A DNA stretch of 64,000 bases from the NCBI GenBank assembly GCA_963931865.1, contig OZ007507.1:12500932-12564931 (forward strand), read 5' to 3'. Source of the stretch: Axinella damicornis. Its lineage: Eukaryota; Porifera; Demospongiae; Axinellida; Axinellidae. Position 1 is the stretch's first letter; each line of letters begins with the position of its first letter. Below the pieces are notes generated by a model. That model saw only the letters and a program-made list of their open reading frames with translations, was not told the origin of the DNA and made no database searches. Of the stretch, positions 14,307 through 61,000 are shown in pieces. The position numbers and the translations under genes are program-made.

Positions 14307-14391
14307 ATGTCTGCCATGAAGACTGTGATTGCGACCCTGTGTCTGATTGTTGCTCAGATGCAAGTTTCTACAGCCCTCAATGAAGATTCAA
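14307..14391 (+). CDS. Signal-peptide exon of the Calx-beta protein
   Basis: The frame starting at ATG 14307 (or the in-frame ATG at 14316) gives MSAMKTVIATLCLIVAQM, then a likely signal-peptidase site after VSTA. The donor is GTAAGT at 14392. The frame stays open upstream to about 14166, but that extension would bury the hydrophobic segment, so the later Met is preferred. One base is left over, matching the phase of every later exon. Confidence 0.8.
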
Positions 14392-26300: not shown

Positions 26301-29300
26301 GGGGTTCGGTGGTGAAGTTGGGCGGCCTGGAGCTCAAGTTGCTTGCACATATAGTTAGCAGATAATGTTTGAAATGACCACTGGGTCCAAAGATGTGTTA
26401 CAGCCCCAACACAATTGCAAGCATTGGAACGTTCATTCACTTCCTGGGTTCAGCCTGCAGCCAATAGGCAGTAATAAGCATGATGAATGACTTGCAGCTG
26501 CTTATCTTCAGCTTCAACCCTTAATTCTTTCCCGATGGCAAGTAGAGCAAGACGTTTGTATCATCTTCAACAATAATTGCGTAATAATCTGTACGAACTG
26601 TGTATATGGTTCTTACGGTATGATAAAATTTTGTGTTGCTGAGTTGCAGCTGTGCCATGATGCCATCAGTGTCTGCAGTTATCTAGCAGATTCCAGTCTG
26701 TAGCACTCACTATAAACATGTTGGCTGGCGCACGGAAGGAACTTTTGAGTGCGATGTTGAAACTCTGTTCTGAAGTATACATGACGGCTGGTTTCTAAAT
26801 TACCAGCTTTCCTGAGGGAACTGGGCATGCACAAGAGTATGTACCAGGCCCTCTGCTTCCTTGCAAGTACTGGTTTACGTATACTGCTTGCTAACTACGT
26901 AGCTTTGTTTATGGGGATTCTATTATACAGGCCTCTTCTGAGAGGTGATTGTAGTTACATCTTACCTTTTAATCCTTTCAGTGTTGGGGGAGGACTACAC
27001 TGTGCCATCACCTCAAACAGTGACCTTTTCCAGTGGCAATGGGATGGGCACCACAGCCTGTGCTACATATGGGATAATGGATGACAACAATCTCGAGTTT
27101 GATCATGCATTTACAGTCTCTGTCTCAAGTTTCACTCCCTCTGGACCTGCTATATCAACAACAATGCTATCAACTACTGTGACCATCAATGATGATGAAG
27201 GTATGCATTGCGCCATCTTAATCAATAGATTGTTATTGGCAGGTCTAGAATGAAAGGTTCATTGGGAAGCTCTGTTATGACTGGTGACCATCATGATAAT
27301 TACATCTAGTATAATGTATATAGCTATTCCGTTTACAGTGCATTTCAAGCACTGATAGCTATGTTCATGACTGGTCAGTTTTGTCAACCTGTTCAAGTGC
27401 ATGAGAAGTATGTACGTATGGCACAATAACAGGGCAGGGGGGAGCCATTTGTCATTGCTGTTGCCATACTGCCTGAAGCAGTGTCTGGAGGTGCTTTTTT
27501 CTTTTTGTTGGCTTCACAAAGTTCACCATGAACTTTCAGTCATTGGGAAGGGCTCTACTTTGTGCATTGCCACTGTTCTTTTTCCCTATATACTCAACAT
27601 TGTGCATGTCTGTAAATAATTGTTGCTTTAAGGTTACGTGATACTCGTGCGCGCGCTGCACGAAGTGTATTGAAAGTGCATGCTGAATATTCTAGCCAAA
27701 AATAAAATCGTAGAACTCAAATTGGACCTGGTCAACAGTGTTAAAAATAAAACATCAAGGGCATGACGGAAGCTTTTTTTGATAGCATAATTTATCTGCT
27801 GTCTCGCTCGAGAAAAGCGGTAAATACCGCTTTTTGGTGAATTGAACTGCTCGTTTTTGCACGGCTATACAGCGTATCCATAAAAGCTTCCATCATACCC
27901 TAGCTCCTTGTGACAGCGCACCTCCACTGCCAGAATCAAATTGCTCACGCTCTTTGTACTAGAGATTTTTGGCTAGAGAAATTTAGCGTACACTTCCAAT
28001 ACATTTCTACATTTCTTCCCAGTGTTCTCGCTAGGCCTTTAGCAGATGGTGCAGCACCATTTGGTTAATCAAATCTCCATTTGGATGTGGTAAACTTAAG
28101 TACGTGCACCATTTGGATCACTTCCTTAATTAATCATTTCCCTGCCCACAGCAGCTGCTGCCATTCAATGTCTGATTATTCATTGTGCACATTTGGATGT
28201 AGATTTCCGGCGAGAACACTGTTTCTTCCAATACATTTCGCGTGGTGCATGCACAAGTATCCCGTAAACCCGTTCCACATTTTTCTACTGTTATAGGCTG
28301 ATTATTTCATTTACTAACTTCACATTTCGTGTATTTCATTATGCATGAGTTGCACATGTGATCCATGCACCATGCTCGAGCTCGATGAGATTTTGGTGAC
28401 ACTTTGATATAGCTGTTTGAGGGAAGATTCAGTTTCAGAAGCTAGCGATTGAATGAAGCGTGTTTTGACTTGGTGCTACAGTTAGTGCTTTTGAGTAAAG
28501 AAATTTGAGTGTATTACATTGCTCTTTGAGCAGGACAGGGGCGGATACAGGATTTGTGAAGGGGGGGGGGGGGGGGGGGGGGGGGGGTCCAACGGTGCAC
28601 AAGTTGAATGCTGCTGAAGGCAGTGCATAGGGGCGTAGCCCTCATTTTTCAGCTGTCAGGATGGTACAGTTGGTCACTGCCATGCCGCGCCGAAGGTAGC
28701 GCATAGAGGTGTGTAGAGGTGATCCGTCAGCCCACACGAAGCGCGGGTAAATTTTTCGCCTTCATTTTTCAGTTGCCAGGATGCATGGGCTTAGTCTTGT
28801 GGGCTGGGCTCTCGTGGTACCTTCGTGCTTTGCACTGATGACAGTGATGTACGAGTAGCAACACAATTCTGAGTGTCTGGGTCTCGCTTCAGGTGGGTGA
28901 AGAGGTACCGTAGGCCACAATACAGCTGCGCAGTTGTGCCGCTCCGCCTTATAACGGGGTTGTCTCGATTCCAGATCATCAGACTGGGAGTGCGTACCCG
29001 TAATTGCGATCCAGTAGCGCATATAGCCGTGTGAGAAGTGGAACCGATGGCTTACCTTAGTGTAGCAAGCAGACAAATGGCAGTAGCACAGAGCAGATAG
29101 AGCACTGGGTAAGTTCTGTTTAACACACTCCAAAGACATGCCATCTACCTAACTATCCTGGCCTATTAAATACCTTAGCTTGGAAGTCGTAAGGGGGGGG
29201 GTCCCCCCCAGATCCGCCCCTGCAGGATGTGTGTGAGTGCTGTACAAACAAACAAAAAGTAAGGGAGGGGATTTCCAGATGGTGGGGTAATTGAAGACGG

Positions 29301-38300: not shown

Positions 38301-41300
38301 GATGTTTCCCTATTTTAGGAGAAGTCTTCCAATTTGCGCATGTCGGGAAAGCATTCAGATGAGGTTGGCACTGGGAGGGCCATTTCCGTCGTTTTTGGCA
38401 TAAATGGACTTAGGACTCCATTTCCAGCATTCATGGTCCGTTATTCGACTATGGCAGGTTGGCATTTCCCAAACGTGTGCCAGATTTTGAGAAGCCAACA
38501 AACAAGCGAGCTGGATACCATAAGTGGTGTATCCATTCAGTAAAGCCTTAGAGCTGAATACTAAGCTGCTAACCCTGGGTAATCAGAAAGCTGCCAGCCA
38601 AATCATTGAAATGACCCCACTCATGTTCACAACAATCCTAGCTACTCCTCCAAGCCCAGTATCATCCATTCACAAGAAGCGGATATTATCTGTTGACAAT
38701 TATGCAGTTATATCCACATGCTATAGTCACATATACCAACATTTCAAGTCACAAATACCGAAGTAATCACTACAACAATTGATGATGTCACAAAGTGTTA
38801 CCTAAATTTAGAATTGGAATAAATTCAGGTGTTCTTGAGATCTGTCTAAAATTTGTACTTGTTCTTGCCTATTGTCTTTGCACCTGAAGGCCGCTACCTT
38901 GAGCTATGCATGCACTATAAGCTCAATTGTGAGTGGAAACCCCACCATTTCATGACATCACTAGTTTATGAATGGTTTACCACCATTGTTGAGTTATGTT
39001 ATCTCCATGAATCTGTACTGTACTAAATGTATTTAGATGCTGTTGATCACTGTTGGTACAAGTAGATTGGTTGTCTGAAAAGGACAAATCTCATCCTCTT
39101 CTCTGCAGATGCTACTTTTAGTCTCCAGACGATTTCTTCTGTGGCTGAGGGCAGCAACTTCATGGTTATGGTTGAGCTCACAACAACGGGAACTCTAGAC
39201 TGTGCCGTGGTTGTTACCTTGGCTACCACTCCTGGCAGTGCAGTAGGTAAACACAACAAGCACTACATGTAGATAACACATGTCTAAGTATGCATCAATC
39301 CACTCTCTCCTTCTGAACAGGTACTGACTATACTGAAACACCTCCTTTCACGGTAATGTTTATGATTGGAGATGGTAATGGTGTTACTCGGCCAGCCACG
39401 ATACTTGCAGTAGACGATGAAATAGCAGAGAATGATGAGAGCTTTACAGTATCTATAAGTTCAACTGACCTACCAAGTATGATTGGGACACCACCTTCCT
39501 CTCAGACTGCAACAATCATGGCTAGTGACCGTAAGTGAAATGTAGCTAGTATGAAGTGGTGAATGTTTGCACTGTTATTTTACAACCATCTCTCTGTTCC
39601 TTGATTCTTAGTTGATGACGTTGAGATTGGAATGAGGATGGCAATGGATTCTGTTGCTGAAGCTGGTACGGCGATTGAAGTCTGTGCTCAAATCGCGGCA
39701 CTGCCAGCAGGTGGACTTGGAACTGACCTGGTGGTGACCTTGTCCACAGTGGGTGACACAAAAGCAGGTTTGCAAAGAACTAGCTACTGATGCTGTTGAC
39801 AGCATCACTAATATTTTGATGACAGCAATGTACGTATGTATGTAGCTTGTTCCCAACCTTTGGTTTTGCAATATGTAATATTGGAAACTCATCCCTAACA
39901 CAATTTAGAACATGCATGACATCCAGGGTATACCTGTGAAGTACATTTGACTTACGTTTTGAAGGGCAACCTGACACTATGAACTTCAGGGAAAATGAAG
40001 CTACTTGTTCAGCATTTGTTTTGCACAACATCAGTGATGGAAAGCAGATTGACAATATCTGATCACATATTGTAGCTTGTTCCCAGCCACTCCAGCCTCT
40101 AGCTGGTTTTTGGATTATGTAATGTAAACTGCCAACCAAAAATATGCTAAATGACCTGCCACGAGTGTTATAATCATAGACACTGTTTGGACTACTAAAT
40201 CACCAACTTCAGCTAGTAACAAGGCTGCTGCTGTCTCTGTGGGATGAATCTTGCTGAAAACTGGCCCGGGAAACACAGCTATAGCAGCTAGTTGTTGCTG
40301 GGGCTCTGGGCTCCTGGCAGGAGAGCTGTATTGGTTTTAGTGAACAGAGATCTGATTGATGCCGGTCAGATGCGAATTAGGTGTTAACTTGATCTCACTT
40401 TGCCAGTAAACACACAAAACAATGAAAAGTTTTAGTTGGCAGACTGCAGCAATGCGTTAACCTTTAACCACCAGATTTATTTCACCTACTATTTTACCTA
40501 TACTGCACGGCAAGTAAATTGCGATGCACAGCCTCTTTGCTTTTGGAGCCGCAGCTATGGATGAATGTAGTTTTCAAAAATCGTTTCTTGTATAACACTT
40601 TGTCTGTCTAGAGCTGCTACTCAGTGTCCAGATGTATAGTTTCCCATTAGAGAACCTTCAGACAGCCCTCCAAATCTTTCTGTCTGCAAAAAAAAATAAA
40701 TTCATTTCCCATTACTTTGTGGTCATGCACAGTCACACCGCTTGGAAGGTACAAGTCTTTAATATTGATGCTCTCATTTGGAACACTTTTCCGACAGGTG
40801 TTTGTGGCGCAGCTTCGCCGCAAATTGGAAGGCTTCTTCCATAAGCCGGATGGTTTCTTCTGATAATCAGGAAGTGTTTTCCAATGAAGCAGAAGGTTTC
40901 TTTCGAAGAGCGTTGGCTTTGTGACTATGTACATAATTTTCCGAAAAATGGTACAGCGTCACTTGAAGATCTTCTGAAGCTTGGTTCATGTCTTCTGGAG
41001 CTGCGTTTATGTCTTCCGGTGCTACTCTGGCACATAAATCTTGCACTGTCAGTGAAATGGTTTCACAAACATACTTTAGTTTAAAAGCCATACTTATCAA
41101 TAGATTATAATACATAAAATAATGCTTAAATTGTTTTATGAGTGGCAACCACACTCTGGTAGTTGTTGGAACCCCAGTTGCAACTCGCTGGTAGCGCAAG
41201 CTATAGGTATTACAGCTCGTTCCAATTATTACCGCACATGTCACGTGGGGACCTACCATGCTCAGTCAGTTGAGTCAGCACTGGGGGGGCCAAGGGGAAG

Positions 41301-44300
41301 ACAAGAAATTATTACACCACTCACGACTTCACCAGCACCGTGAGTTTTGGCACATAAGCATCAATGAACGACAGCGATCATAACCATGTGGTTAGAATCT
41401 TTGTGGGCCTTTTGTAAAAGCTGTACTGGCAACGAAAGTCAAAGAGAGAATGCTCGAGCAATGGTGACCGACAGCACGATAAAAGCACTTGTATTTCCAT
41501 CACCAAGGCAATTGAGATTCAGCAAAATTATAGCTACATTTGGGTCACTGCATGATAGCAATCACGATGGTGAAGTCAGAATCTTTGTAGGCCATCCCGA
41601 AGTAGTTACACATTTTATTACAATACATTGCATTCCACGATTTTTCCCCTACCAGGAGTGTAATTACTACTCCAAAGGATGCCCAAAACAGGAAGTGCTG
41701 ACTAAGTGCCGAAACGGAATTACAAAACCACATCAGATTTCAATTGGTGCCATGTGGTGCCTTTGACTCAGTGCGCATTCACATTAGATTATTCTGTTAT
41801 TCTCTCTGGTTGATGATAGGGACCAGTCAATATTTGACGGCTTATGCTGGTGATGGAAAGTGAAGGCTGGTGCATTCTATTCCAGTAGTAACACCAGGAA
41901 CCCGTAATGAGAAGGAGAACTTGAATTGAATAGCAATGGTCTAAACACAGCAACTGAAATACACCCTTATTTGGAAGCTTGCTAACGTCATTCCTTTTCT
42001 TGGCTGTGTTCCTGTACTAGCTACCTCTATCAAATCTGTCTTCTGGTTCAGCATGAGTTTCCACAGCTGGATATTTTCTTTGTCTGGCACTTCTACAAGG
42101 AAATCTAGCGTGCAATCTGAATCAGGAATTGTGACTGTGTGCAGTTTTCAATGATCTAGCATCAACACCTAATCAATATTGAAATCACCCACCCTTATAG
42201 TGTGGAGGAGAGAAGAGTGCCAGGTACGCACAGTTTGCTTATGCTTCAATACTTCGAGTTATAGTTAGACTATGGCCTTGAGTGGTTTATGGGAAATAAC
42301 CACGAGAGGCTGTTTATTTAGACCACGAGGCGCAGCCGAGTGGTCTAAATGAACAGCCTCGAGTGGTTATTTCCCATAAACCACGAAAGGGCATAGTCTA
42401 ACTGGCTTAGACTATAGCTACCTGAATTAGAGATCCTTGCACGCTCCAACACTCCAGAATGCGCTGAGCCATGGTCTAATTTCCATAAATGCTGAGTCAT
42501 CATGCTCCAATTTCTATAAACCCACAGCTGTTGCACGGCTGCATGGCTTCGGAATATAAACCACAGGCGGTGCCTTTGATTTGTATGGCTGCTATAGTCT
42601 AACTACATTTTTGATTGCATTGTTCACAGAATGCAAGTGGTTACAGCCTCATCATCATGGGGCATTAGGCAAGGAGTCCCAATAAGGTGTGCACTCTGTG
42701 CAGCTGTATCCTGTTCTAGCTCATGCTTGGTGAACAAGCCGATTGAGTGCTGCTATACTTGAAAGTCTGTAAATGTGCGATAATACCTTGTGTTCCTGAT
42801 TCACAGCAGTGCCATCAATGTCTGCGCCAAGAGCACTAAGTAGGCTGCACCCCTTTTCCTGCATTGAATGGCACACTGAAGGAACTTTTGAGTAAGATAT
42901 TGAAACTCTGGTACGAAGTATGACTATATTATTGCACCGTATGGAGTGCAATATGGTGAGGTATTGCACGAGTGTGGAGAGGGAAATACTACATGCACAA
43001 GAGTGCAATGCTTCACCATATTGCACTCCCACCGGTGTAATGATAGATACTTCGCAACATAAGCAAAAAGTGGCACGGTAAGCAACAAGAAGCTAGTCTG
43101 CAGGCAAGAACGGTACACTAGTAGTCAGCTAAAGGCACAAAGAAGTTACCTCCACTCTTGTGCTCGATTTCCAGCAATGGCCCTGTTAATGGGAAACTTG
43201 CAGATGAACAGTTGACATCTTTATCAACTCAGTGTGCACCATATTTGTGTGTGGTTGCTACGTGCACAAAACTGGAAGTAACCAATCAGCACTGCCCATT
43301 CAGTCACGCCTTGCCTGATGGCGTGCAATATGGGGAGTGCAATACTGGTGGATAGTACTATATTGTCAGAATACAAAGTATGTACATGACGGCTGGTTTC
43401 TAAATTGCCAGGTATGCTTAGGGAACTGGGCATGCACAAGAGCGTGTACCAGTCCCTCTGCTCTCTTACAAGAGAGCCTGGGAATGAGAGTAATAGTTTA
43501 CGTATACTCCTTGCTAACTAGGTATAGTTTTGGTTACGGAGATCCTATTATACAGACCTCTTTTGAGAGGTGTTTGTAGTGACATCTTACCTTTTAATCC
43601 TTTCAGTGTTGGGTGAGGACTACACTCTGCCATCATCCCAAGAAGTGACCTTTTCCAGTGGTGATATGGAGGGCGACACAGACTGTGCTACATATGGGAT
43701 AATAGATGACGACAATCTCGAGTTTGATCATGTGTTTACAGTCTCTGTCTCAAGTTTCACTCCCACTGGACCATCTGTATCAGCAACAATTCCATCAACT
43801 GCTGTGACCATCAATGATGATGAAGGTATGCATTGTACTATGGTGACATTCTTGCATACATTGCTATTGGCAGGTCTATTGTTTAAGTTTCGATGGAAGT
43901 TCTTGTTTATATTATCTTCTTCAATGACTGCTGTGATCAATAATATACTCAGCTATTCCATTAAGAGTGCTTGTAAAGTGCTTTTAAGCACTGATACACA
44001 ACTGGCCAGTTGTGGCAACCCGTTTAAGTACATGCAGTTTAAAGAGTATGTACGCAGTACGGAACGGTACGGTGCAGGAACAGAGCAGGAGGGAAGCTAC
44101 GTATTTGTCATTGCTGTTGTCATACTGTGTCTGGAGGTGTTTTTTGCTGGCTGCAAAGCAGCTGACAAACTGCACGACGTGTGGGAAACGTTAATCGTGA
44201 ATTTTCTGTCATTTGGAAGGGCTCTTATAGCAACTTTGTATTTTCATTGCATTATCAATGCTTTCAGCTTCCTTGCCATTTTACTCTGTCGGCTGTATGA

Positions 44301-46027
44301 GCATGAGCCCAGAAACACGAAGGACAGTAATGCCTAGCAGTGCACGTTTCCTATTTCTGATCCCCCGCGGATACCACGAAAATCTCCCCACTGGGAAATC
44401 AACACAAGTACGGTGTATCAGCTACTTATTATTATCGATTTCCTGGGTACACCCCTTTCCAAATCGCATCCAGTGGTGGAATGCGGAGTGATCTGGTACT
44501 TCACAGGAACTGGACCAGGCTCAAGCAAGGCAGTGACTGTGCATGTATGTAAACTAGGGGAATGAATGCTTGAACTTGTGGGGTAAGCCCGAACTAGTTC
44601 ATGTGCAGAACATGGAGCTGTTGCAAGCACATGTCTGTCATCAGAATGTAGCATATCACAACCTCGGACCGCAGGATGTGACACAAAATGCACCACATAG
44701 CCAGCATGCATGTGCTCTGCAGAACATGTACAGAACAGATGAAAGCACTCACACTGTCTTTCTTTACGTACGGTAGTCCCCATCGCTGTCGTAGCCTGGG
44801 GTCTGGGATCCAGACTAGTTGTAGCCACAGCCACTAGACTGAGGTCAGTGTAACGTGACAAGTGACTTTAACACAGGTACGTATACAGTGAATCAGGCAA
44901 CAAATTGCAGATTATGGCATCAACAATTGAAATCTTTTGTTGCAATGTGGTAGCCTCTACCGCTCTAGCTATAGTCCGCAGTTGTGACTGTGATGCTATC
45001 TGCGTGTCATGCACTAGAGTTGTGACTGTGGTGCAAATGTGTTTCAACTATGCTCACTCATTTGCTGCAGCATAGAGGGTATATCTTTACACCTTTCCAC
45101 CCTAGTGATGCATGCAATATGCCTCTTTGCACTGCCAACCTGTGCAATGATTGCACGTTCATGAGAGATGGACTGTTCTCCAGGCTATAGTATACCAGTG
45201 ATTCAATATTACTACCATGACAATCAATTGTCACAGACTTATAACCATGCTTGTCTGCTTAATTCATTACAGTATACTTGTATCTCACTGCCTCTTTGTT
45301 ACCTCCAGAGGAATAGATGTTCATGGTTACTTTTTACATTTCAGCGACTAGTGCTACGATTCAGATGGTGATGCCTTCAGACAGTGTGGCTGAGGATGTG
45401 GCCGGAGGAGGACCAGTGCAGGTGTGTGCCAGCATCACTGGAGTAATGGAGCTGGAGTGTTCAGTGGTAGCTACAGCATCAGTTGTGGGAAGTACCAAAG
45501 CAGGTAAGGATAGTTGCAAATAACTCTCCAGGATGTTGGCATAGTTGGAATCATTAAAGGAATAGCATACATTGATGCTATGGCTGGGAAAAGATCCCAT
45601 GCAACAGACACTGTTTGTCAAGAATTGTATTGTCAATTTAACAGAATTCTTTTGTATGTACATAGCTAGCTACTTGTCTTGTGAGCACTGGGTTCATTAC
45701 ATCTTGTCATAAACATGAAGGTCGCATGCCACTAAGTACGAAGGTCACACTTCACTAGTCAGGGGCTTAGGTATAGAGGGAGCAGGGGCCCCATTTTCGA
45801 AAGCTGGGCGGCTGACCCCACCCAAAACAGCAGCTGGATGGTTATACTTTATACTATCCCACGAAACCTAGCACCAGCTAACTATTACTATGTTGCTATT
45901 AAACCTAGCTAGCACTATCTTGTCTCATTTCCACCCTTTACCTCGGGGCCAGGCTGGAGTCTCGATCGAGCGATTGTATGTGTCCTCTGACCCTGTATCA
46001 TGCGCACATGGCTAATTGCACCTTGAG

Positions 46028-46072
<45 letters not shown>

Positions 46073-49000
46073 ACACACACACACTTTTGGTAGTGATCTC
46101 CACTCCTGCTAGTCTAGTCCCACTCCCAAACTTTCCACTTCTTCCGTCTCTCACACACACCCACACAAATGCATGCATGGTTTGTTTTTGGGAAGCCACT
46201 TGTCAATGTGGTTAGAGTGAATATGATTTCTGGATGATTGGTATTATGAATTATGTGTCTTTGTCGAGTGCTCATCCCTTCAGTGATATCCGTTCACTGT
46301 TTAGATTCATCTGAGCACCTTTGTGGGTAGAGCTTCAGAGTTTGAATACCTCCCATAATGTGGAGTGGAAGATGATGACCTACCTAATAGCTTTCCATCT
46401 TAAAGCTGAATCTCTCACTAGTTTGTAAGAAAAAATTTGCATCTGTTCTTTCTGTTTAGTCTTGGGTGTTGACTTCAGTGCACCAGTCACCAGCAAGAGA
46501 CGAAGTGTATATGAACAACTCCGGGTTCGTCGACATACTAATCACGTGGAATTCAACTTTGCAATGGGGACAAGCACCTCAGCCTGTATTGATGTGGATA
46601 TTTTGGATGATAGCAACCTAGAGGGAGACCACACCTTCGCTATAAGTTTGACTGGGGTGATCACTCCAACTCTAGCGGCAGGACTTGGTTCTCCTACGTC
46701 CACCACTGTCACTATTCAAGATCCGGAAGGTATGTTATCACTTCCATCCAAAATGGACATACGTGTGATGCATATAAAGCAATCATCAAGGTTGAAACAG
46801 TGACATGTACGCGTACTGGCAAGAGCGCATGATGACATCATCTTCATTGCAAAGCAGATGGCCATGATGTCATCATGTGCTCTTGATACTGGAGTGCAGG
46901 TTACTAGGAACCAGTGTCTGTACATACCGGAGAACTAGTGTCTGTACATACTGGAGTGCAGGTTCAATGAGAACTAGTGTCTGTACATACTGGAGTGCAG
47001 GTTCAATGAGAACTAGTGTCTGTACATACTGGGGTGCAGGTTCAATGAGAACTAGTGTCTGTACATACTGGAGTGCAGGTTCAGTTAGAACTAGTGTCTG
47101 CACATACTGGAGTGCAGGTTCAATGAGAACTAGTGTCTGTACATACTGGAGTGCAGGTTCAATGAGAACTAGTGTCTGTACATACTGGAGTCCAGTATGT
47201 CTGTACATACTGGAGGTTACGAAAAGCTGGGTGAAAGTAAAAAAACTCTCTGTCCAAATTGTTGAATGAAACCACACCTCAATTTCAATATTGTTTACGA
47301 TAGGCAGTGCATGTTGATGTTCATAAACGACACAGTTGAACGATGATGACCCCCTGCAAACAGCGCACAGGGTAAATGCTCTACTAGGCACTCTATTCAG
47401 TAAAGTGATTGCTGTAGCTAGCTGCCTCATGCGCTGAGGGGTGTGCCATTGGAATTTTGACCAAGTCTCGCCCTCTTTGATCGGACAGTGGATTTTGCCA
47501 TGTTTTTAGTATGGACATCACCAACACTGCTTTGGGGCCATGCTGCGGGAATGTGCAGCTTCTTACCAACACAGCGGTATACAAGTCCGGTGTTCATACA
47601 TCGTGTAGTTCTCGAGATAGAGCTGTTCTTCTCCATTTTCTTCTAGTCTATCAAACATGATGCTGATGTATCAAGTTACTTGATGGAAAGATGAAAGCTA
47701 CATTCCTCTTACACTCATTGTTTCTGTACCTGCACTTCTGGGCTCTGTCTGAAGAGAAATGTGCAATGACATGAGGAGAGGGGAGGGGAGGAGGGAGGTG
47801 GGAGGGGTAATAGTGAGAGTGTGGATTCTGCATGAGAGGAGGACATCCAAGGGAGCAGGATGCACAAAGTGGTGTATCCATTCAGTAAAGCCACAGAGCT
47901 GAATACTAAGCAGCAAACCCCCGGGTACTCAGAAAGCTGCAAGCCTTTCCTCATTCAAAGAACCCCATTCGTGTTCACGACAATCCTAGCTACTCCTCCT
48001 ATCCCAGTATCATCCGTTCACGAGAAGCGGATATTATCTGTTGACAATTATGCAGTTATGTCCACGTACCATCCGTGTATGTATCTTGTTTCTATAAGCT
48101 CAATTGTGAGTGGGAACCCCACCATTTCATGACATCACTAGTTTCTGAATGGTTTACCACCATTGTTGAATGAATCTGTACTGTACTAAATGTATTCAGA
48201 TGCTGTCGATCACTGTTGGTACAAGTAGATTGGTTGTCTGAAAGGGACAAATCTCATCCTCTTCTCTGCAGATGCTACTTTTAGTCTCCAGACGATTTCT
48301 TCTGTGGCTGAGGGCAGCAACTTCATGGTTATGGTTGAGCTCACAACAACGGGAACTCTAGACTGTGCCGTGGTTGTTACCTTGGTTACCACTCCTGGCA
48401 GTGCAGTAGGTAAACACAACAAGCACTACATGTAGATAACACATGTCTAAGTATGCATCAATCCACTCTCTCCTTCTGGACAGGTACTGACTATGCTGCA
48501 ACACCTCCACTCACGGTAACGTTTACTGTGGGAGATGGTGATGATGCTACTGAGACAGCCATGATACTTGCAGTTGACGATGAGATAGCAGAGAATGAGG
48601 AGAGCTTTACAGTATCTATAGGTTCAACCGACCCACCAAGTATGATTGGGACACCACCTTCCTCTCAGACTGCAACAATCATGGCTAGTGACCGTAAGTG
48701 AAATGTAGCTAGTATGAAGTGGTGAATGTTTGCACTGTTATTTTACAACCATCTCTCTGTTCCTTGATTCTTAGTTGATGACGTTGAGATTGAAATGAGG
48801 ATGGCAATGGATTCTGTTGCTGAAGCTGGTACGGCGATTGACGTCTGTGCTGAAATCAGGGACCTGCCAGCAGGTGGACTTGGAACTGACCTGGTGGTGA
48901 CCTTGTCCGCAATGGGTAGCACAAAAGCAGGTTTGCAAAGAACTACTGTTGTCGTTGACAGCATCACTAATATTTTGATGACACTACGTACATACATACG

Positions 49001-52000
49001 TAGCTTGTTCTCAGATTTTCCAGCCTTTGGTTTTGTAGTATGTAATAATTCCTAATGCAATTTCGAATGTGCATGACAACAAGGGTATACCTGTGAAGTA
49101 GATTTGACTTGCGTTTTAATTTGATTTTGGTAGTTACGTACACTGTGAGAGAAAAAGCAAGCAGAAAGAAATCATCACTAGTACATACAAAAACTGGCGG
49201 CATATAAAGCCTTTATGACGACTTACTATTCATCTTCGAGTGTTTTCCTTGCCAAGAAGATCCGTTGCGAAAGTACCACACCAGAAAGTCACCAGACCGC
49301 CAAAATCGGTCTCCTCCTCCTCCTCCTCCCCCTATCCCTCTCCCTCCCTCTCCCCCTCACCCTTACCCTCCCCCTCCCCCTCTCCCTCTCCCTCCCCCTC
49401 CTACCCCTCCCCCTCCCCCTCCCCCTCCCTCTCCCCCTCCCCTCCCCCTCCCCCTCCTCCTCCTCCTCCTCCTCCTCAGACGAGCTAGTTCAAATTTGCT
49501 GACCCCCTCACGACGGTGTTGGCACAAAACAGCAGCATTTTACACTCGGCATCGAGGCAATGGTTTGTGGGTACCACGTGTACCAAGACAGCTGGGATGC
49601 AGCTATCGGGGAACAGCTCCCTTGTAAGAGAGAACATGGGAACCACAAGGATCCCTTCACTGTTGTAGTGCTGAGATCGACTGTTACAGCTGGTCATGTG
49701 CCAAAGAAGATATCAAGTGTGTGTTCCATGTTTGTGCTGCGTGATGGTACAATTCACTATAGCCTCTAGGCGCTACTTAGTATTGAAAAATTTGTGAGCT
49801 AAAATTTTGCGGTCCGAGACGAATCTGTGAAAACTACGAAAAATTAGGTGCCTTGAAAAATTGGTGCTATATATACGGTATGATGTGGAGAAGGGTATGC
49901 AGTGAAGAAATATAGGTTAGACACTGAGACCAAGGGATCTATGCGATTTAGAAACCCGAGGGCCCTGGGCTGTAGCGTCCCGAGCGCAGCGAGGGCGCTA
50001 CTAAGGGCCCGAGGGTTTCTAAATCGCGTAGATCCCATTGGTCTCAGTGTCTAACCGATTTAGAGTATAGCAACGGTAACTACGCTAGCGCTTCAGTTGT
50101 CAACAAAATAACCTACGAGTCGGAGGTCCTTTTCGACGAAATAACAGACTGGCTTACGAGTACAAGGCCGCTGACACACGTACACAAGGCGCTCGAGTGA
50201 CTTGCGCGCATGATTGAGCAGTCACATGGCTCCGCCCCTCAACTTGGCTCCACCCCACCCGGTACCCGTGACCGCCCGTTTATATAGCTCCTCCTTTGAG
50301 CGTTTGATGTAGCCGTTGCACTTCCATACACAGAGCTAGAGACTAAGTACACAGATATGTGCACTGCCTGTAATTCTAAAGCAGCTGTATAATACAGTAG
50401 CCTGTTAGTTGCCATGGATTTCAAGTTGGCAGTAAACAATAACTTTTACAGGTACAGTACCCTGTGGGCTCAATAGTGAAACCCCGTACGAGGTTTCACT
50501 ATGGGATTTAGATACCTCGCAGTGAGCAATCTGATTGGTGGAATTTGTACAACTATACTCTAATGTGTGGTATATCGGAGAAACTACTCGATATCCAGTG
50601 CACAGTACTCACAAATTAACCAACGTCTTTCTTACTTGTTGGTGATGGTTTACGACTATGCTCAGAATATCAGTTTAGTTGTGGGATAAAAGTCGCAATA
50701 CTTATACTGGTACTTTTTAGTTTCAATTACTCAATCTCGGTTAAGTTAACTACCGGTAACTACCTGTTTTTGGTTGATTTCAACACTATGTAGTTCAACC
50801 TTTTTTTCGGTGTTAAATGATTATGTATGCCTCGCTGAAGGGGAAGTTAGTATTGGTGTAGGTAAGTTAACTACTACTGATGATGAATATACCAGTGTCT
50901 GGCCTCCTGTGGTGGGGCCCCTTAAAACAAGCCTGGACACATTGCAGAATGTTTAAGTTATGTTCATCTCTTGTCTACCCTTGCAGTTGTGGGTGCGGAT
51001 TTCACAGTGCCAGCATCTCCACAGTTGACCTTTACCAGTGGTGTTGGTGTCAACGTCCCTTCCTGTGCTACATTTGGGATAATTGATGACGACAATCTCG
51101 AGTTTGATCATGAGTTTACAGTCACCCTCTCCAGTGTCACTCCCACTGGACCTGTCCTATCACCAACGTCTTCATCGACTATGGTGACCATCACTGATGA
51201 TGAAGGTATATCCTTACTGTCATAATTTTCGACATGTCCAGCATATAGCTGTTCTGTATGAACAGTATGCATCCTTTGATTTGTTGAGCAATTTTGACCT
51301 CCCACTTTATATAGCTAATGGTTTCTTGATTTTGCAAGCACTAAATATACATTGTGGTCTATGTTAAAATTTTGCACTATAGATCCCATGCCTCCTGAAG
51401 GTGGGCAACTGGAAAAGCAGGGAACGGAAAACGGGTCGGGAACGGGAATGGGAAAGGGAATGGGAATGACACAATCCTAAGTGGACTGTTTTCGAGGTCA
51501 CTGTAAAACCTGGACTCTGACCAAAACAGCTGTATACAGACAGCAAGTGCTATTGTCTGCTCGATTTCCGATAGGTCAAAAGTCATGTTGATATTAATGA
51601 GCTGCAACAAATGTGGCTCTGGCTAAATCCTTGTAGGTTCTATGCTGGCTTTCAGCATCCATGACTTGTATCCACTGTTTCTTATGGAGGACATGTACAT
51701 CATGTATTTACCCTCGCCAGGCTTTAATCAAGCTGTGGTTAGTATGCTCCAGCCTTGCTTGAAATGTAGAAAACAGAAGAAACATTATATCATCCATGAC
51801 TATGGTCGAAGCTCTTGTTTAAATATGCACATGACCTTTGACCTCTCAGAGGAGACAATGCCTCAACAGGCTAGGAAGCAACTTGAGACAGAGCTGGAGA
51901 CAACCTTTTGTAGCTTTACTGCCGTTGCTGTCCGTATACAGCTGTCCGAGTCCAGGGTTTACAGTGACCCCACAATAGTTCGCTTAGGATTGTGTCATTC

Positions 52001-55000
52001 CATTCCCATTCGTAGTTCCATTCTGCCCCCACCCCGTTTCCCCCCAGGTGGTGTGGTTTAACTGATTAAGACTTCCTATGCACTGCACGCTTCTGTAATA
52101 AATGGCTTCCTCAAGCATGATGCTGGTAGTTGTTATGTAATCAGCAGCAACAGAAGCTTGCATGATCAGGCTTGTTATTGCCCTGCTGTGCTGTTACTAC
52201 AGGGCAATATGTCATATAATGCCCTGTTGGTGTAGCCTCGTTCCCAGTCCCACGCCCAGCTTTTTGTCGCTTGCAGTACGGTAAAGCGGGGAGGGCCTGG
52301 TACATCTTCTCACGTGAGCATGACGTAATCGAAAAATGGCAAAATTTTCAGAACGAAGACGCTGCGTTTTGCGTGTTATTCAGCCATCTACACGTTCAAC
52401 GCTCGGTGAGTATGACAGTCGCCCCCCGCTAGCTAGATACGTGTGGTATGTTACCTGGTACCTTCGCTCTTCTTGCTGTTCTGAGACCCACGTACGCCCA
52501 CGCTTCCTTCCGGTCTTTCTACCCCTTTCTACCCTCGACGTCACTCACGTGAGAAGATGTACCAGGCCCTCCCCGCTTTACCGTACTAAGCAGCGACGAA
52601 AAGCTGGGCGTGGGACTGGGTACGAGGCTACTGTTGGTGTGTTTGATCCACCCAAGCAACGGGCTATAATTATTGCACTCTAGGGAGTGTAATATGGCTA
52701 GGTATTGCACAAGTGTGTAGGTATTTTCCTGAGCCGAATACGAGGGAAAATACTAGCTACACAAGAGTCCAGCCATATTACACGACCAAGAGTGCAATGA
52801 TAGATATATTATATACTTCACAACAAATAACTAATCGCGCAAACGGCACGGTAACTTGACCGTTGAGTGGCACGAAGCTAGCCATGTTTACAGGCAAGAA
52901 TGGTAGACTGGTTGTTTTGTCTGCTGGTTAAAAGCGCAAACAACTTACCTCTGCTCTTGTGTTCGATTTCCAGCAATGGGCAATGCCTTGGTAGTGGAAA
53001 CGTGCTGATACACGGTCAACAGCTTTCGGCTCATGGCACTATTTCACGTGTGGTTGCTACGTGCAGAAACCCGGAAGTGACCAATCAGCACCACCCATTC
53101 AGTCACACCTTGATGACTTGCAATATGGGGAGTGCAATACTGGTGGATATTGCACTCCGTGTCTATTAAGTAATACTATTGGACGAATACGAAGCATAAC
53201 CAATCACCACAGTATGTATCTGCCGCACACTTTGAAATACTGGTCAAACAGCCTGGTCTCGAGGCTACCCCCAACGTATGTCTGTCTTTTGCCACTCAGC
53301 TAGTAAGGGTTGACTCAACTGCAGGGTGGGGGACACTATGCAACCTCTCAAGAAGGACCTGGTTAATGAGCGCAGTGGAGCCAGCTGCTAGTTGTGGCCA
53401 AAAAAAAACAGATGATGCGCACTGTACCTACACAATATTTAAGACATTTTAGCTTGGATTTCCTGGCTTAATTCCTGAAGATGCTGTGCATGGTTATAAG
53501 CATGGGGAGCTTACGGAGGACATATACCGATATACTACTGGGTATGTCAAAGGAGCGACAGAGGAGGAGTATAGTGCATCTTGTAGGTGGAGGTGTCGTA
53601 GTCTTACTCCAAATGAGCATCAAAGCCCTCACCTAATTTTCGATGGTGGCAAAAGGCAGTGTGGCCAACAGGTTCGTCTCCCAAAAGGGACCGCATCGTG
53701 TGAGAGGACTCTCTCCTGGAGGCTTGGGGCTAGACACATGAGCTTACCACCTTCGAGATCTGTCTCTCGGAATCCTACTTTTCAGCCCCCCTCTTCACCC
53801 TTTGTAGGTCTTGTATGACATCATCCTCACTGCCCCCAGTGATGTCGTCACTGAAATAGAACAACCCAAATTCAGAGCTTCACAATGGGTTGACAATATG
53901 GAGCCATAGCAGACTTTCTCCAGGTAAAGAAGAGGAGAATAAGCGTCCACTTCTAGGCTTCACCAAACCTAAGCTGAAGTGGTGACAACAGTGTTCCCAT
54001 TTGCTGTTTGATGGCCAACCCCTAGCATTCAGTGGCACAACACAAAATAAGGGGCAAACTGGAGGAGTGTTATCAACTTGACAAATCTATACAACTATCC
54101 ATATTCACAACAATGGTTGGTAGGTGTAGTGCTCAATTGCAAGGCGCTGATAGGCTATGCTAAAGCTATCAAAAAAGTTGCTGCACGATTGAAATGTAAT
54201 AGCAATTGAGTGTACGCACATTTGACCAATTAGAGGATCACATCAATTGTCAAGACAGGAATATTAATGCTCATTGCCTGAACGATGCCTAAGGATGAAG
54301 CCAGAGGGACTTCATGGGCATTGAATGCATGAGGGTTTTCTAGCAGCAGGTCAAAGTCCGAAACATGGGTGTCTAGACCGTACATAGCTTGTCTTCTGAT
54401 GACCAGCATCTCCCATAGAGAGAGCGCACCTACCTATATTCTGTGGAGTGACCGGTTTCATGGAATATTCCTGTGGAATGGGTGCATACATAGTAGCTAT
54501 TGCAATTCACCTCATTGCCATTTTCCCGAGCAATAGCTAGTTGATGATTGTGTAGTAAACTGTGCAACTTCAGTTATTGAAGAAACTGTCCTTTCTGTTC
54601 ACACTGTAGCTATAAATGCTGATATTAGTATGCAGAATTCTACACTAGTGGTATCTGAGGGCACACCATCGATAGATGTGTGTGCTGTCATCAATGGAGT
54701 AGCAGGAAGTGTGGAAGAAGCAGTTACAGCTACTCTGACTCTTTCGGGATCCACAAAAGCAGGTAAAGATCTACTTTGTTTGGACGCAAACACCTTGCAC
54801 ACAGCATAAAGGTTAAGTTTAGGTGCTTGCATAATTATGCGAAGCTGCAAGATTTTTCAAGTATACGTACAAAGCCAATTCTCTTGCAAGAAGCCTTCCG
54901 CTACTTTGGAAGATGCTTCCCAATTCTCGGAAGAAGCCTAAGAATCTGATTGCACCACAAACACATGTCAGCTTGCTAGCTATGTATTAATCCATGTAAC

Positions 55001-58000
55001 ATTTGCATCATGTTTTTTATTTGTCATTCCTTATAGTACTGAACACAGATTTTAGCACCGCGGATCCTGTTGCCAGTTTTCCAGTCGGTCCACTGATACC
55101 AGGATGCATTACAGTTGATATAAGTCAGGATATGGTAGTGGAGGGAGACCACACCTTCTCTGTCGGCCTGAATCCTGGTCCCATAACACCTGCCCTAACA
55201 GTAGGCACACCAGACACCACTGAGGTCACCATCACTGATGATACCAATGAGGGTAAGTGAATCCCACCATTTTGCAGATAACATTTAATTACTTCTTATT
55301 CTAGGGCAACCACACTACTCACAGGTAGCATTTTACATCTCATTCCAATTAACGCACATGTCACGTGACGACCATGCTCAGTCTACAGTACTGGAGTCGT
55401 TTTCTAAGCTCGCTTCTGATTGGTTCACTTAGGTCACTTACGTCATACAGTGCATACTTAGGGTATATTATGGCAGGTTAGGGTGTGGTTTATATTGTTA
55501 TTATAGCCAATAGAATTGAAGCTTTGAAAACCACTCCGGGATAGCTCTGCTCAGTCGATATCAAGTCAGTAATGGTGGTCAAAGGGAAGACCATAGATTA
55601 TACAGTATAGCTCAGCTAGTGTTTAGGAATGCATGCATGATCAAAATGGCAAGTTGGAGTATACAAGTTTAGAGAGAATAGTATTTGCTTGATCAGAAGT
55701 GGCAAGTATGCATGTTTATAGTGAATATAGTGTAATTCGATTTGCAAATTGAGTACTTGTGACCCCTTCTCATAGCATTAACTGTCGTGATCTTAACTGA
55801 CGGTGTGATCTGAAAAATCGCATACATATATATGTGGGACAGATATGCACTTCACGATACCATTACCTGTACTACCAGGTAAACAGTAAAGTGCTTTCTT
55901 TACCGTTGGGACAGTGAATGTCTGCACAGCAATGTTTGCATGGTATACAGAAATGATTTGGCCCTATAGAGACAATTCTCATCCTGGAACCTCAGCAGGT
56001 TGATAGTTTGCAAGTACCGTAGTCGCACGTTATTAGGTGCAGCTTATACTTATAGGCGCATATTCACTGTTAGGCGCAGGTCCAACTCTTGTCCCAGGTA
56101 CTCGCTGTTAAACGCTTCAGTCTCCTTCCAGAAACTCTGCAATTTTCGATCCTACGGAGTGGATAAAAAGCTATAGTTCGAAGTGAAGCGCACTTCCTAT
56201 TAGAGTAATGTCATTCGTTGTTAGGTGCATCTCACTTATGGGCGCATATATATTTCCTTCCTGTGGAGTTATAGGCACATGCGTCTAATAACGTGTGACT
56301 ACGGTATAATTCCCAGTGTGATGTCATAGGTTGATTCAGTAAGGCTCGAGTCGAGTATAACTTGTGTAACCTTCCAATTTGTGTCTCTTCTTTATGACTC
56401 ATGTGGTGTAATTTCTACTTTGGTAGATGAGTATACTTCTTTCACTTTCAGTTAATTCAAGAGTTGATCACCACTGACTACATTGATTGATTTCTCCTGT
56501 AGCTGTCACGTTTATGTTTGATCAATCCACATACTCTGGAAGTGAGGGTGGACCGCCTGTGTTACTGTGTGCTAATATAACTGACCTCATGGGCACTCTT
56601 GACTGTGATATTGTGGTCACATTTGCAGCCATCCCCGGCGATGTGACAGGTATGGCAATGTTTTTGTTGATTAAACACTTCTTGTTTCTGCACAACTATT
56701 ATGGATATCTGTATCAACAAGTAGTCAACCAGAGTGTCACGTGCACCAGGCAGTGATCCACCACTGAATATAATAGTGATGATGCAACAACGTTTCTTGT
56801 CAGCAATGAAACCGAAGTTGCCACTCTTATTAGGTTTTAGAGTGCAGTAACAAGTGAGCTATCCAAGGAGAGTTGTATCAGTTGAATCTGCGACAGTGAG
56901 ATGCAATTGGTACTAAATCCTGTGTTTATATGTTTTATTAGTGCTGTGATATTGAACTTGAAGCTTGCGCTGCTGCCCTAGCTATAGGGCAGAATGACTG
57001 TTCAACAATAGTTTGGACAGTGACAAGTGTGACATGGGAACATAAGGACAGCTCAATAGTGTATATATACTGTAGGGTATGTATCAAGTGCATGTAGTAG
57101 TTTGAATGTAACTGAACAAGGGGATGGATCGATGCTGGATACAGGATAGGCTGTGAATATAATCGTCAGGCATATTATAACTGATTGCCCAAAGCACCGA
57201 GAGCCTTACTTCTCAGGAATGTTTTTGCTGAGTTAGCCTTGCTGCTCAAGGTTTTGACCCATCACGTATCAAGTGCCCACTCTACTCTACAGTAGTTCCA
57301 TAAGTCACACATACGGTTGTCTGACTATACCAGGTGGTGTTGTTAACATCTTTCTGTATCAGCATGCTCTGATTTTTTGATCCTTGATTGCTTGATTGTA
57401 TCCTGAGCCCTTAAAAGTCACTTGATTGCCTGATTGTCTGTACCATGTATAGAGTCAGTGTACGTTTGCTACCAGGACATGCCAGCAATAATTATTACAT
57501 TCATGTCACAGGATGGTGGTTTTGTGCATTCTCTTGCTACTGATCAGCAATAATTGGAGCTCTAGCTGATATAGTTTGTGTATAGGCGACACCCTACTCT
57601 TACCACAGTTAATTAGTTTGTGATACCTGTCTTGCATAATACATTACATTTGAGATACAGTTTTCCTCCCTATACAGATGAAGTCGAAGACTACATTTCT
57701 CCTGCCACGTTTGAAGCAACTTTTACGGCTGGATCTATGGTCGGCGATACTGCATGTAACAATATCACAATTGTTGATGACCTTGATCTGGAAGGCGGCT
57801 TACACGACTTTGGTGTTCGAATTTCCGGAAGCACTCCATCAGGATCACGGATTTCGACCGTAGGCGCCATGGCCATTGTGCAAATTGAGGACAATGATGG
57901 TACATATTATTGAACCTGAGTATGACACATGCATGGGCCTATGGGTCTGTGATAGGTCATTCACAATATTGGAAAGTGTGGGATTGGGGAGTCAGGGGGA

Positions 58001-61000
58001 GGGGATATCATGAGCTGAGTGACAGAAGATGAATACATGCAAATCTCTTTCTACTGAAAGACTTCTTGGTGTTAGTTAGTTAACAAGTTTCTCTTGTGGC
58101 TAGAGCAAACTGTTGGTGTGGTCCAGTACGTGGAGGCCATGCACCCAAAGCAAAAAAAATTCAGTTAATTTACAACCCCCATTAACTGCTACCTGGTAAC
58201 CTCCTGAGGAGACATGTTCCATGTCACCATATGATGCGTCTTTTAAGCCCTCTGAAAAATTTCGGCCAAGAATTATCATGTTTCACCGCTTTAAAAATAT
58301 AACAGAGAATCAAATGGATAGCTATGTCTCAAGTCCCATCCAAATCCTAACTTCTGTGTCCTCTTCATCTGACACAATATGCTGACATCAATCCAGAAGT
58401 GATATAGGCCCACTGTACAATCCTATCTATAAGCAGCACTTTATTTGTGTACAATACCAGTTCTCACAATTTCAAAACTTGTGTCAATCTCAGAACTGAA
58501 GTCAGTATGTGTTTACAGCCAATAAGGATGCATGTTGACATGCACTAATTTATGTTCATTTCAGGTGCCACTCTTCAGTTTAATCAGACTCAGTACAGTG
58601 CAAGTGAAGCGGGACCACTGGAGGTGGACGTGTGTGTTGTGATAAGTGACCTAACTGGGGAACTCCAAAGTGATTTGGTCGTGACATTAGATCCCGTGCC
58701 TGGCGATGTTACAGGTACGTATACTATGCCCACTGCTATTATGCGTAACTGTAACTTCATGCGTATTCTTATTCTCAGATGATGGTGAAGACTTCACAAC
58801 GACGCCAGCAGGAGTGTATGAGGCAACATTTCCATCTGTCACAACAATGAATGGGGATGTTGCATGTGACACCATCACCATCATTGATGATGATGTGCTA
58901 GAAGGAACCCATGACTTTGGTTTCACAATTGGTGGCACATCACTGCAAGGGATTATGTTCCTAGGCCAACTTACTACTGTGGATATTGAAGATAATGAGA
59001 GTAAGTATTTGTGTCTCCAATCAATAAATGGCATTCTTGCCCAGTTAACCATGTGGAGTGCATAGTGTGCTTAACCCTTTAAGCCCCATTGACGTCTATA
59101 GGCGTCATTTTGACCCTATGCACTCATAGGGCTTCTCGTCAGTCCAAAAAGAGACCAAAAAGTCTTCAGAGGGCCTAGGGACAATTTTGAGGGACGAACC
59201 CAAAAATTTGGTCAGATTTCGGCGCGCCCTCCCCACTAAACGAAAGGCAGGGGGGTTTCGAAAGGGGGGGCGGGGGCCCCCCCTTCGACTGTCGTGGGCG
59301 GTTTTTGATTTTAATGAGATTCGTTGGCCCGAGGATTTTTGATTCTAATGATATTCATAGACCCCACCCAGGGCCTCAAGAAAACATGCAAATTGGTGGT
59401 GTAAGGTGTGCCATCAGTCAGATCTGGCCCAAGTTTAGGGAAATGCTGGGCGAAAATCCGGCTGACATCCACATTTGACCTCCGATTGCTGGCCTTGTGG
59501 GGGGTCATGAATATCATTAACGGTATTGCCAGAGGGGTCTCTCCATGTGTGCGGGCCCCACCAAGTTTGGCCGCTGAGGAGCGTATGCTGTGGAAGAGGA
59601 GTACCTACGAAAGTGGTGTGCGCTGAATGCATGAAAATGTGTTGTCTTGGTGGGAAGAATTCGGTGGTTAAAGGGTTAATATGTGCATGGAGGATCAATG
59701 AATCTCATTAAAAATCGGCAAACCATCCCAAACTGGCACACAGTGCAAGTCTAGGCTGTTTTGAGGGCGAATTCTCACCAACTATGAATCTCATTAACCC
59801 TTTAAGCCCCATTGACGTCTATAGGCGTCATTTTGACCCTATGCACTCATAGGGCTTCTCGTCAGTCCAAAAAGAGACCAAAAAGTCTTCAGAGGGCCTA
59901 GGGACAATTTTGAGGGACGAACCCAAAAATTTGGTCAGATTTCGGCGCGCCCTCCCCACTAAACGAAAGGCAGGGGGGTTTCGAAAGGGGGGGCGGGGGC
60001 CCCCCCTTCGACTGTCGTGGGCGGTTTTTGATTTTAATGAGATTCGTTGGCCCGAGGATTTTTGATTCTAATGATATTCATAGACCCCACCCAGGGCCTC
60101 AAGAAAACATGCAAATTGGTGGTGTAAGGTGTGCCATCAGTCAGATCTGGCCCAAGTTTAGGGAAATGCTGGGCGAAAATCCGGCTGACATCCACATTTG
60201 ACCTCCGATTGCTGGCCTTGTGGGGGGTCATGAATATCATTAACGGTATTGCCAGAGGGGTCTCTCCATGTGTGCGGGCCCCACCAAGTTTGGCCGCTGA
60301 GGAGCGTATGCTGTGGGAGAGGAGTACCTACGAAAGTGGTGTGCGCTGAATGCATGAAAATGTGTTGTCTTGGTGGGAAGAATTCGGTGGTTAAAGGGTT
60401 AATATGTGCATGGAGGATCAATGAATCTCATTAAAAATCGGCAAACCATCCCAAACTGGCACACAGTGCAAGTCTAGGCTGTTTTGAGGGCGAATTCTCA
60501 CCAACTATGAATCTCATTAACCCTTTAAGCCCCATTGACGTCTATAGGCGTCATTTTGACCCTATGCACTCATAGGGCTTCTCGTCAGTCCAAAAAGAGA
60601 CCAAAAAGTCTTCAGAGGGCCTAGGGACAATTTTGAGGGACGAACCCAAAAATTTGGTCAGATTTCGGCGCGCCCTCCCCACTAAACGAAAGGCAGGGGG
60701 GTTTCGAAAGGGGGGGCGGGGGCCCCCCCTTCGACTGTCGTGGGCGGTTTTTGATTTTAATGAGATTCGTTGGCCCGAGGATTTTTGATTCTAATGATAT
60801 TCATAGACCCCACCCAGGGCCTCAAGAAAACATGCAAATTGGTGGTGTAAGGTGTGCCATCAGTCAGATCTGGCCCAAGTTTAGGGAAATGCTGGGCGAA
60901 AATCCGGCTGACATCCACATTTGACCTCCGATTGCTGGCCTTGTGGGGGGTCATGAATATCATTAACGGTATTGCCAGAGGGGTCTCTCCATGTGTGCGG

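Follow-up and report, generated by a model that had tools for sequence, protein, structure and literature searches.

Described systems and the Calx-beta locus

The fungal genes het-d and het-e are WD40-repeat allorecognition genes in which repeats are swapped within and between family members and positive selection acts on repeat residues (PMC1805685). The sponge Calx-beta array analysed here resembles them in joining repeat exchange with positive selection on repeats, the difference being that the fungal units are WD40 repeats with allorecognition shown, whereas here they are animal Calx-beta exons known from sequence alone. In Botryllus, the allorecognition-linked gene fester, for which population data exist, is described as having some codons above 1 and most below (PMC3549757); the likeness to the present locus lies in an animal gene with some codons above 1, the difference in the majority of fester codons that fall below it. 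A relevant precedent comes from Nematostella, where a survey of 94 tandem-repeat proteins reports Ka/Ks > 1 for some 40% of them (PMC2805694). Snake-venom phospholipases A2 also resemble our case. These small secreted proteins have exons that outdiverge their introns and dN/dS > 1, as seen here, but the sponge locus is a giant repeat gene in which copy exchange is visible.

Calx-beta domains are also common to this locus and the sponge aggregation factors (MAFp3/AqAF family). A review credits allorecognition in Amphimedon to aggregation factors that bear an extracellular Calx-beta domain (PMC10815962), and an Amphimedon grafting study reports that genes of aggregation-factor-mediated adhesion were not significantly enriched afterwards (PMC5450542). 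Is the present gene an aggregation factor? VWD and Wreath domains are typical of that family. No VWD match lies near the gene: of 13 in the genome, the two on the same contig (C3, 6.58 and 7.53 Mb) are separated from it by some 5 Mb or more, and by VWD content the gene does not group with the aggregation factors; matches were scored exon by exon, and a split VWD could escape this count. Adhesion GPCRs of the ADGRV1 type combine a signal peptide with some 30 Calx-beta domains in a single giant gene, and the array here is similar, with its signal-peptide-like exon and roughly 31 such domains. They may differ at the 3' end of the array, where 7tm_2 is absent among the matches listed: with 150 of 255 candidates scored, none of these falls in C3:12.50-12.64 Mb, the 3' end being provisional, and no clear 7TM frame occurs on the plus strand of C3 at 12606-12619 kb. 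Elsewhere, some of the listed 7tm_2 matches are close to Calx-beta arrays of C6 and C7, and others lie just upstream of a related copy, F. Among the titles and abstract openings listed in our literature search, mostly without subscription papers, neither this gene family nor selection on sponge Calx-beta arrays is reported.

Structure of the Axinella array

The window is a 64,000-nucleotide stretch of Axinella damicornis contig OZ007507.1 (positions 12,500,932 to 12,564,931), and the features below are given in window coordinates on the plus strand. The probable first coding exon (14307..14391, start codon at 14307 or 14316) was found by ORF scan and sequence, has a phase-1 donor, GTAAGT, and contains a signal-peptide-like stretch, as assigned by eye and hydropathy alone. 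A matching ORF (C3:12618701-12618922) lies upstream of the first Calx-beta domain of a sister gene. Downstream of the signal-peptide-like exon follow about 31 Calx-beta domains, with two exons per domain throughout, in an array that extends past the window to about C3:12606134. HMM matches and phase-1 splice-site candidates place the first domain at 15862..16314 (exons 15862-16005 and 16084-16314); the first four exons, when joined, match Pfam Calx-beta, with the second domain as the best stretch.

A three-domain module is present inside the array as H, A and B, and related arrays occur at other sites of the same chromosome. Module H (22626..27200; exons 22626-22766, 24396-24608, 24743-24898 and 26982-27200) has relatives F and G at other places on C3. 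Copy A starts with exon 1 (39109..39246), the first half of a Calx-beta domain, followed by intron 1 (39247..39320), exon 2 with the second half (39321..39530), intron 2 (39531..39611) and exon 3, the first half of the following domain (39612..39767). The remainder of module A covers 43607..46729 (exons 43607-43825, 45345-45503 and 46487-46729, the last with an uncertain 5' edge). In copy B the same parts are exon 1 (48272..48409), intron 1 (48410..48483), exon 2 (48484..48693), intron 2 (48694..48774) and exon 3 (48775..48930), with the remainder of module B at 50987..55252 (exons 50987-51205, 54610-54762 and 55037-55252). More Calx-beta exons fill 56503..63512 (56503-56649, 57678-57899, 58565-58714, ~58809-59000 and 63366-63512). 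All 27 window exons have phase-1 splice-site candidates, which is consistency and not proof, as the scan took phase-1 sites only; no stop codon interrupts the 27 translated exons, or exons 1-3 of the copies used. Judged from the DNA, we infer that all these exons may form one giant modular gene, with a protein predicted to be secreted or exposed at the cell surface.

What supports the domain assignment? The joined exons of modules A and B score 62.0 and 89.5 bits against Calx-beta (PF03160), for a Pfam gathering cut-off of 27. The best PDB match is NCX1 (E 0.00044), which accounts for six of the eight matches with E up to 1. Further copies of the A and B exons are located elsewhere in the genome, and in the five copies A-E the DDxIAE motif, aligned to NCX1 446-451, is always kept, while the residue aligned to NCX1 E454 is kept in four. 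The acidic residues of NCX1 446-451 and E454 we take to be calcium ligands; three ligand-aligned residues are kept in all five copies. At least 13 protein matches emerge from the 7987 candidates scored, and two of those listed have an informative source name: one from the demosponge Geodia barretti (P0003) and a MAFp3-named protein from a bacterial bin (P0010).

Copies A and B and the mosaic

The first-pass annotation had read nearly identical introns between diverged, replacement-rich exons of copies A and B as the mark of diversifying selection. How much of this holds? Its base and codon counts are exact on direct realignment (38915-39960 against 48092-49117): 1 of 138 bases differs in exon 1, 1 of 74 in intron 1, 22 of 210 in exon 2, none of 81 in intron 2 and 11 of 156 in exon 3, or 34/504 in exons and 1/155 in introns (Fisher P 0.0016), with 24 replacement and 4 silent codons, of which exon 3 contributes 8 and 0. 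The near-identity does not extend to every intron; the next one (39768-39960), which had been omitted, has 22 differences in 178 aligned bases and 24 gap columns besides. Could one copy be an assembly or haplotype artefact? The A-B matches stop at ~38503 and ~39960, so the outer flanks differ, and the copies sit at separate places and in two orientations on one 20.8-Mb contig; the chance of an artefact looks exceedingly small.

The differences between A and B are clustered. Their longest difference-free run, 158 bases, reaches from exon 2 through intron 2 into exon 3 (P 0.0015 under uniform scatter of the differences), and for exon bases only the longest run is 114 (P 0.004). The closest relative of copy A shifts from B in exon 1 to C in exon 2 and E downstream, and site patterns across the copies are clustered as well (P 0.0003). 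The region is a gene-conversion mosaic. Intron 1 shows no more than one substitution in any pairing of the five copies, with a further one-base insertion in copy E; intron 2 of copy A is identical in B and has 93-95% identity to C, D and E. The exon-intron contrast is in part a product of copy-to-copy exchange, which the first reading had missed, and probably in part of selection, as it had proposed. GC-biased conversion was considered too and is unsupported, weak-to-strong and strong-to-weak singletons numbering 31 and 31 in exons and 11 and 6 in non-coding DNA.

Is conversion alone sufficient, its tracts having covered introns and spared parts of exons by chance, with no selection? The clustering of A-B differences, the identical run that crosses two exon borders and a next intron as diverged as the exons all fit such a process. 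Conversion alone does not, however, yield more replacements than silent changes, nor does it set exons above their own flanking introns, as is found in 15 of 20 exon comparisons (five exceptions; exon 46487 excluded for its uncertain border) and in 18 of 24 once three comparisons of exon 46487 and A2-G2 are added. On balance, conversion without selection seems unlikely.

Probable selection across the copies

The A-B pair alone gives a dN/dS of 1.76 (bootstrap P 0.085), and its codons with a single difference number 18 against 4 (P 0.33). The proposed diversifying selection, with a dN/dS above 1 on codon alignment, is therefore not significant for the pair on which it had been based, but it is borne out by the wider copy set and by syntenic exons. 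Among copies A-E, dN/dS exceeds 1 in all ten pairs (1.46-3.19; bootstrap P < 0.05 in four) and averages 1.82 (CI 1.27-2.88, P 0.002). Codon maximum likelihood (ML) gives 2.20 on the best tree (LRT 11.4, P 0.0007) and 2.57 on a star tree, where exons 1, 2 and 3 taken separately reach P 0.08, 0.019 and 0.002; site-model LRTs of 42-47 are inflated by recombination, and 14 sites have a posterior above 0.9. Six longer syntenic comparisons, which partly overlap with each other and with the five-copy set, have ML dN/dS of 1.37-3.86, above 1 in every case and significantly so in four. Four syntenic pairs taken jointly, two of which use the same copy F exon, give about 2.2 (LRT 23.6). The ML tests of copies and syntenic pairs assume one-base steps, and differences of two or three bases occur in 53 of 751 codons. 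With multi-hit codons dropped, 104 replacement and 22 silent changes remain (P 0.003-0.02, shared copy F exon removed); the 5' part of exon 46487 was excluded from the syntenic and single-difference tests. For the copy set, dN/dS exceeds 1 significantly and still does so when multi-hit codons are set aside.

Several comparisons sit closer to neutrality. The estimate for H-G is close to neutral (ML 1.37, P 0.38), A2-F2 misses significance (P 0.06), clade F-G-H gives 1.54 (P 0.087), and two-state codon columns in A-E (34 against 8) fit a neutral expectation (P 0.25); the older comparisons yield 1.02 for A-E with I and 0.81 for gene 1 with gene 2. Are the extra copies simply redundant, with exons that drift under relaxed constraint at a dN/dS near 1? 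The A-B pair by itself, H-G and the two-state columns are compatible with 1, and gene 1-gene 2 falls below it. Neutral exons should nevertheless match introns, whereas in the six syntenic comparisons replacement divergence is about 1.6-3.5 times the non-coding value, and non-synonymous exceeds non-coding divergence in all six (P 0.007 to 4e-12). The lack of stop codons in the exons used and the retention of the three residues aligned to the presumed calcium ligands also argue against relaxed constraint, which we consider very unlikely.

Another tandem Calx-beta array of the same genome provides a control. Its dN/dS is 0.14-0.42 in all ten overlapping module pairs and 0.41 by codon ML, from which a near-identical duplicate module was omitted. 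Within one genome, then, one Calx-beta array is diversifying and another is conserved. The control also bears on whether a function of the introns, for instance in splicing, constrains them and makes the exons look fast by comparison. The near-invariance of intron 1 in the five copies would suit this, as would silent divergence above non-coding in six of the ten control pairs and, at P < 0.05, in three of the six syntenic comparisons, the latter an excess that amino-acid selection alone leaves unexplained. Functional introns would not account for the excess of replacements over silent changes within exons, and the conservation of intron 1 is absent from the more distant copy I. Moreover, non-coding divergence in the syntenic comparisons (3.5-9%, from stretches that range from hundreds to thousands of bases, lowered by the masking of poorly aligned stretches) is close to the 3.5-8% of the control array. 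Constrained introns are a highly improbable cause of the contrast.

Biological meaning

The reading that we favour, and hold to be probable, is diversifying selection on the exons of a giant Calx-beta gene, with copy-to-copy exchange homogenising the introns. Duplication of a three-domain module within the array would have given H, A and B; the copies would be mixed continually by gene conversion and unequal exchange, and selection would favour novel amino-acid variants in exons and oppose their homogenisation. Selection and exchange together would keep the introns alike and let replacements accumulate at a rate some 1.6-3.5 times that of non-coding DNA. What is being selected? The target may be a recognition surface. 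Genes whose coding parts outpace their introns are usually genes of conflict or recognition, and the molecular basis of individual recognition in sponges is still debated. A bolder and rather doubtful proposal is that this Calx-beta family could be a sponge self/non-self locus apart from the classical aggregation factors, in which selection renews and conversion shuffles the surfaces and introns act as conserved recombination handles. Repeated pieces of this putative surface gene change faster in their coding parts than does most of the surrounding non-coding DNA, which points to selection for novel protein variants together with DNA copying between repeats. With its exact exons, the locus would be a candidate for recognition between individuals in a lineage that branched early among animals.

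Gene architecture

Calx-beta first-half and second-half exons alternate along the plus strand of the window (27 matches, 15.9 kb to 63.4 kb), and the minus strand gave no half-domain match at the same threshold. All 27 have in-frame acceptor and donor candidates in phase 1, the only phase that the scan covered. Because alternation and phase are unbroken, we infer, from genomic sequence rather than transcripts, that the array is one gene. The array reaches to about C3:12606134 on its 20.8-Mb contig, C3, with about 31 half-domain pairs and one short extra match by manual count. A signal-peptide-like exon with a phase-1 end lies at 14307-14391, and a sister gene with a signal-peptide-like frame of its own starts at about C3:12618.7-12619.2 kb. 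Joined exons fall in Calx-beta by Pfam, well above the cut-off; the closest solved structures by sequence are the NCX1 calcium-binding domains, and Geodia barretti is the sole clear animal name among the 13 protein matches listed. The 5' part of exon 46487-46729 is unlike Calx-beta when translated, and its acceptor position is uncertain. Directly after the exon ending at 59000 lies a tandem repeat (59071-61126) of an approximately 723-base unit with copies 99.8-99.9% identical.

Divergence of the copies

Copies A (39109-39767) and B (48272-48930) each hold three Calx-beta exons with introns 1 and 2. The first-pass annotation read diversifying selection from exons diverging by replacement around near-identical introns. 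Realignment reproduced its counts exactly: differences fall at 34/504 exon bases and 1/155 intron bases, and the altered codons comprise 24 replacements and 4 silent changes. Near-identity holds for introns 1 and 2, but not for the following intron (39768-39960), in which 22 of 178 aligned bases differ and 24 columns are gaps. The differences are clustered, a 158-base identical run reaching from exon 2 through intron 2 into exon 3 (P = 0.0015), and dN/dS for A-B taken alone is not significantly above 1.

Further copies lie elsewhere on C3. Copies D and E, with G, a relative of the window's third module H (22626-27200), are at C3:12.40-12.44 Mb; C and F, another relative of H, are at C3:18.86-18.88 Mb; both groups are oriented opposite to the window modules. 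Averaged over A-E, intron 1 has diverged by 0.005 and intron 2 by 0.044. No two of the five copies differ by more than one substitution in intron 1 (39247-39320 in A), a level below that of intron 2; this conservation is absent from the more distant copy I. Exon divergence fails to exceed that of its own flanks in 5 of 20 exons. A minisatellite (46886-47215) in the intron preceding B is much expanded in D (reverse complement of L035, the D locus stretch, 1682-2790). Two 7tm_2 matches (G000, C3:18878185-18879172) lie just upstream of F on the same strand; others near Calx-beta arrays, among the matches listed, are at C6 4597478 and 4636388 and C7 2235735-2236523.

Tests of selection and their control

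Among A-E, dN/dS exceeds 1 in all ten pairs (bootstrap P < 0.05 in four), with mean dS 0.075, dN 0.137 and ratio 1.82 (CI 1.27-2.88, P = 0.002); under codon likelihood the ratio is 2.20 with the best tree (P = 0.0007) and 2.57 with a star tree. Site models prefer to place about 27% of codons in a class near 8, in tests inflated by recombination, and two-state codon columns, at 34 to 8, are indistinguishable from neutral (P = 0.25). Six longer syntenic comparisons, which share sequences and are independent neither of one another nor of the five-copy set, gave ML dN/dS of 1.89 for B-C (P = 0.018), 2.15 for B-D (P = 0.018), 3.86 for A-E (P = 0.0003), 1.87 for H-F (P = 0.047), 2.18 for A2-F2 (P = 0.06) and a non-significant 1.37 for H-G (P = 0.38). 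Their replacement divergence is 1.6-3.5 times the non-coding divergence, itself lowered by masking of poorly aligning stretches. In four comparisons sharing no exons, codons with a single-base difference number 104 replacement versus 22 silent among 751 (P = 0.003 at kappa 3; 0.02 at kappa 1). Clade F-G-H gives 1.54 (P = 0.087), and in older comparisons the ratio drops to 1.02 (A-E with I) and 0.81 (gene 1 versus gene 2). Silent divergence exceeds non-coding at P < 0.05 in three of the six syntenic comparisons, which fits either slower introns or silent changes that rode along with conversion tracts that were kept.

Does the signal stem from the domain itself or from the method? A near-uniform tandem Calx-beta array at C7:2755001-2785000 (module about 2.8-3 kb, protein strongly conserved) served as control. 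Its dN/dS is 0.14-0.42 across ten overlapping module pairs and 0.41 by ML (P = 0.008 versus 1). Non-coding divergence is 3.5-8%, in sequence that may hide undetected exons, and silent divergence is numerically the higher in 6 of 10 pairs. Since tandem Calx-beta modules are conserved in the same genome, dN/dS above 1 is not a by-product of domain or method.

Exchange, sites and probable mechanism

The copy nearest to A changes by segment: it is B for exon 1, C for exon 2, B again across intron 2 and exon 3, and E downstream. Informative sites of like kind cluster, adjacent incompatibilities numbering 7 where 16.5 would be expected (P = 0.0003). Sequence exchange between copies is therefore real, and can account for some of the near-identity of the introns. 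Fourteen sites have posterior > 0.9, seven each in exons 2 and 3 and none in exon 1; by alignment, several in exon 2 probably lie in loops. Acidic residues aligned to the NCX1 calcium ligands D446, D447 and E451 are invariant in all five copies.

A similar pairing of positive selection with repeat exchange appears in fungal het-d/het-e (PMC1805685). In Axinella damicornis the most probable product is a large protein, secreted or on the surface, that displays many Calx-beta domains. Selection would favour novel variants in some of these domains, repeat exchange would supply and spread such variants, and exons, not introns, would resist homogenisation.
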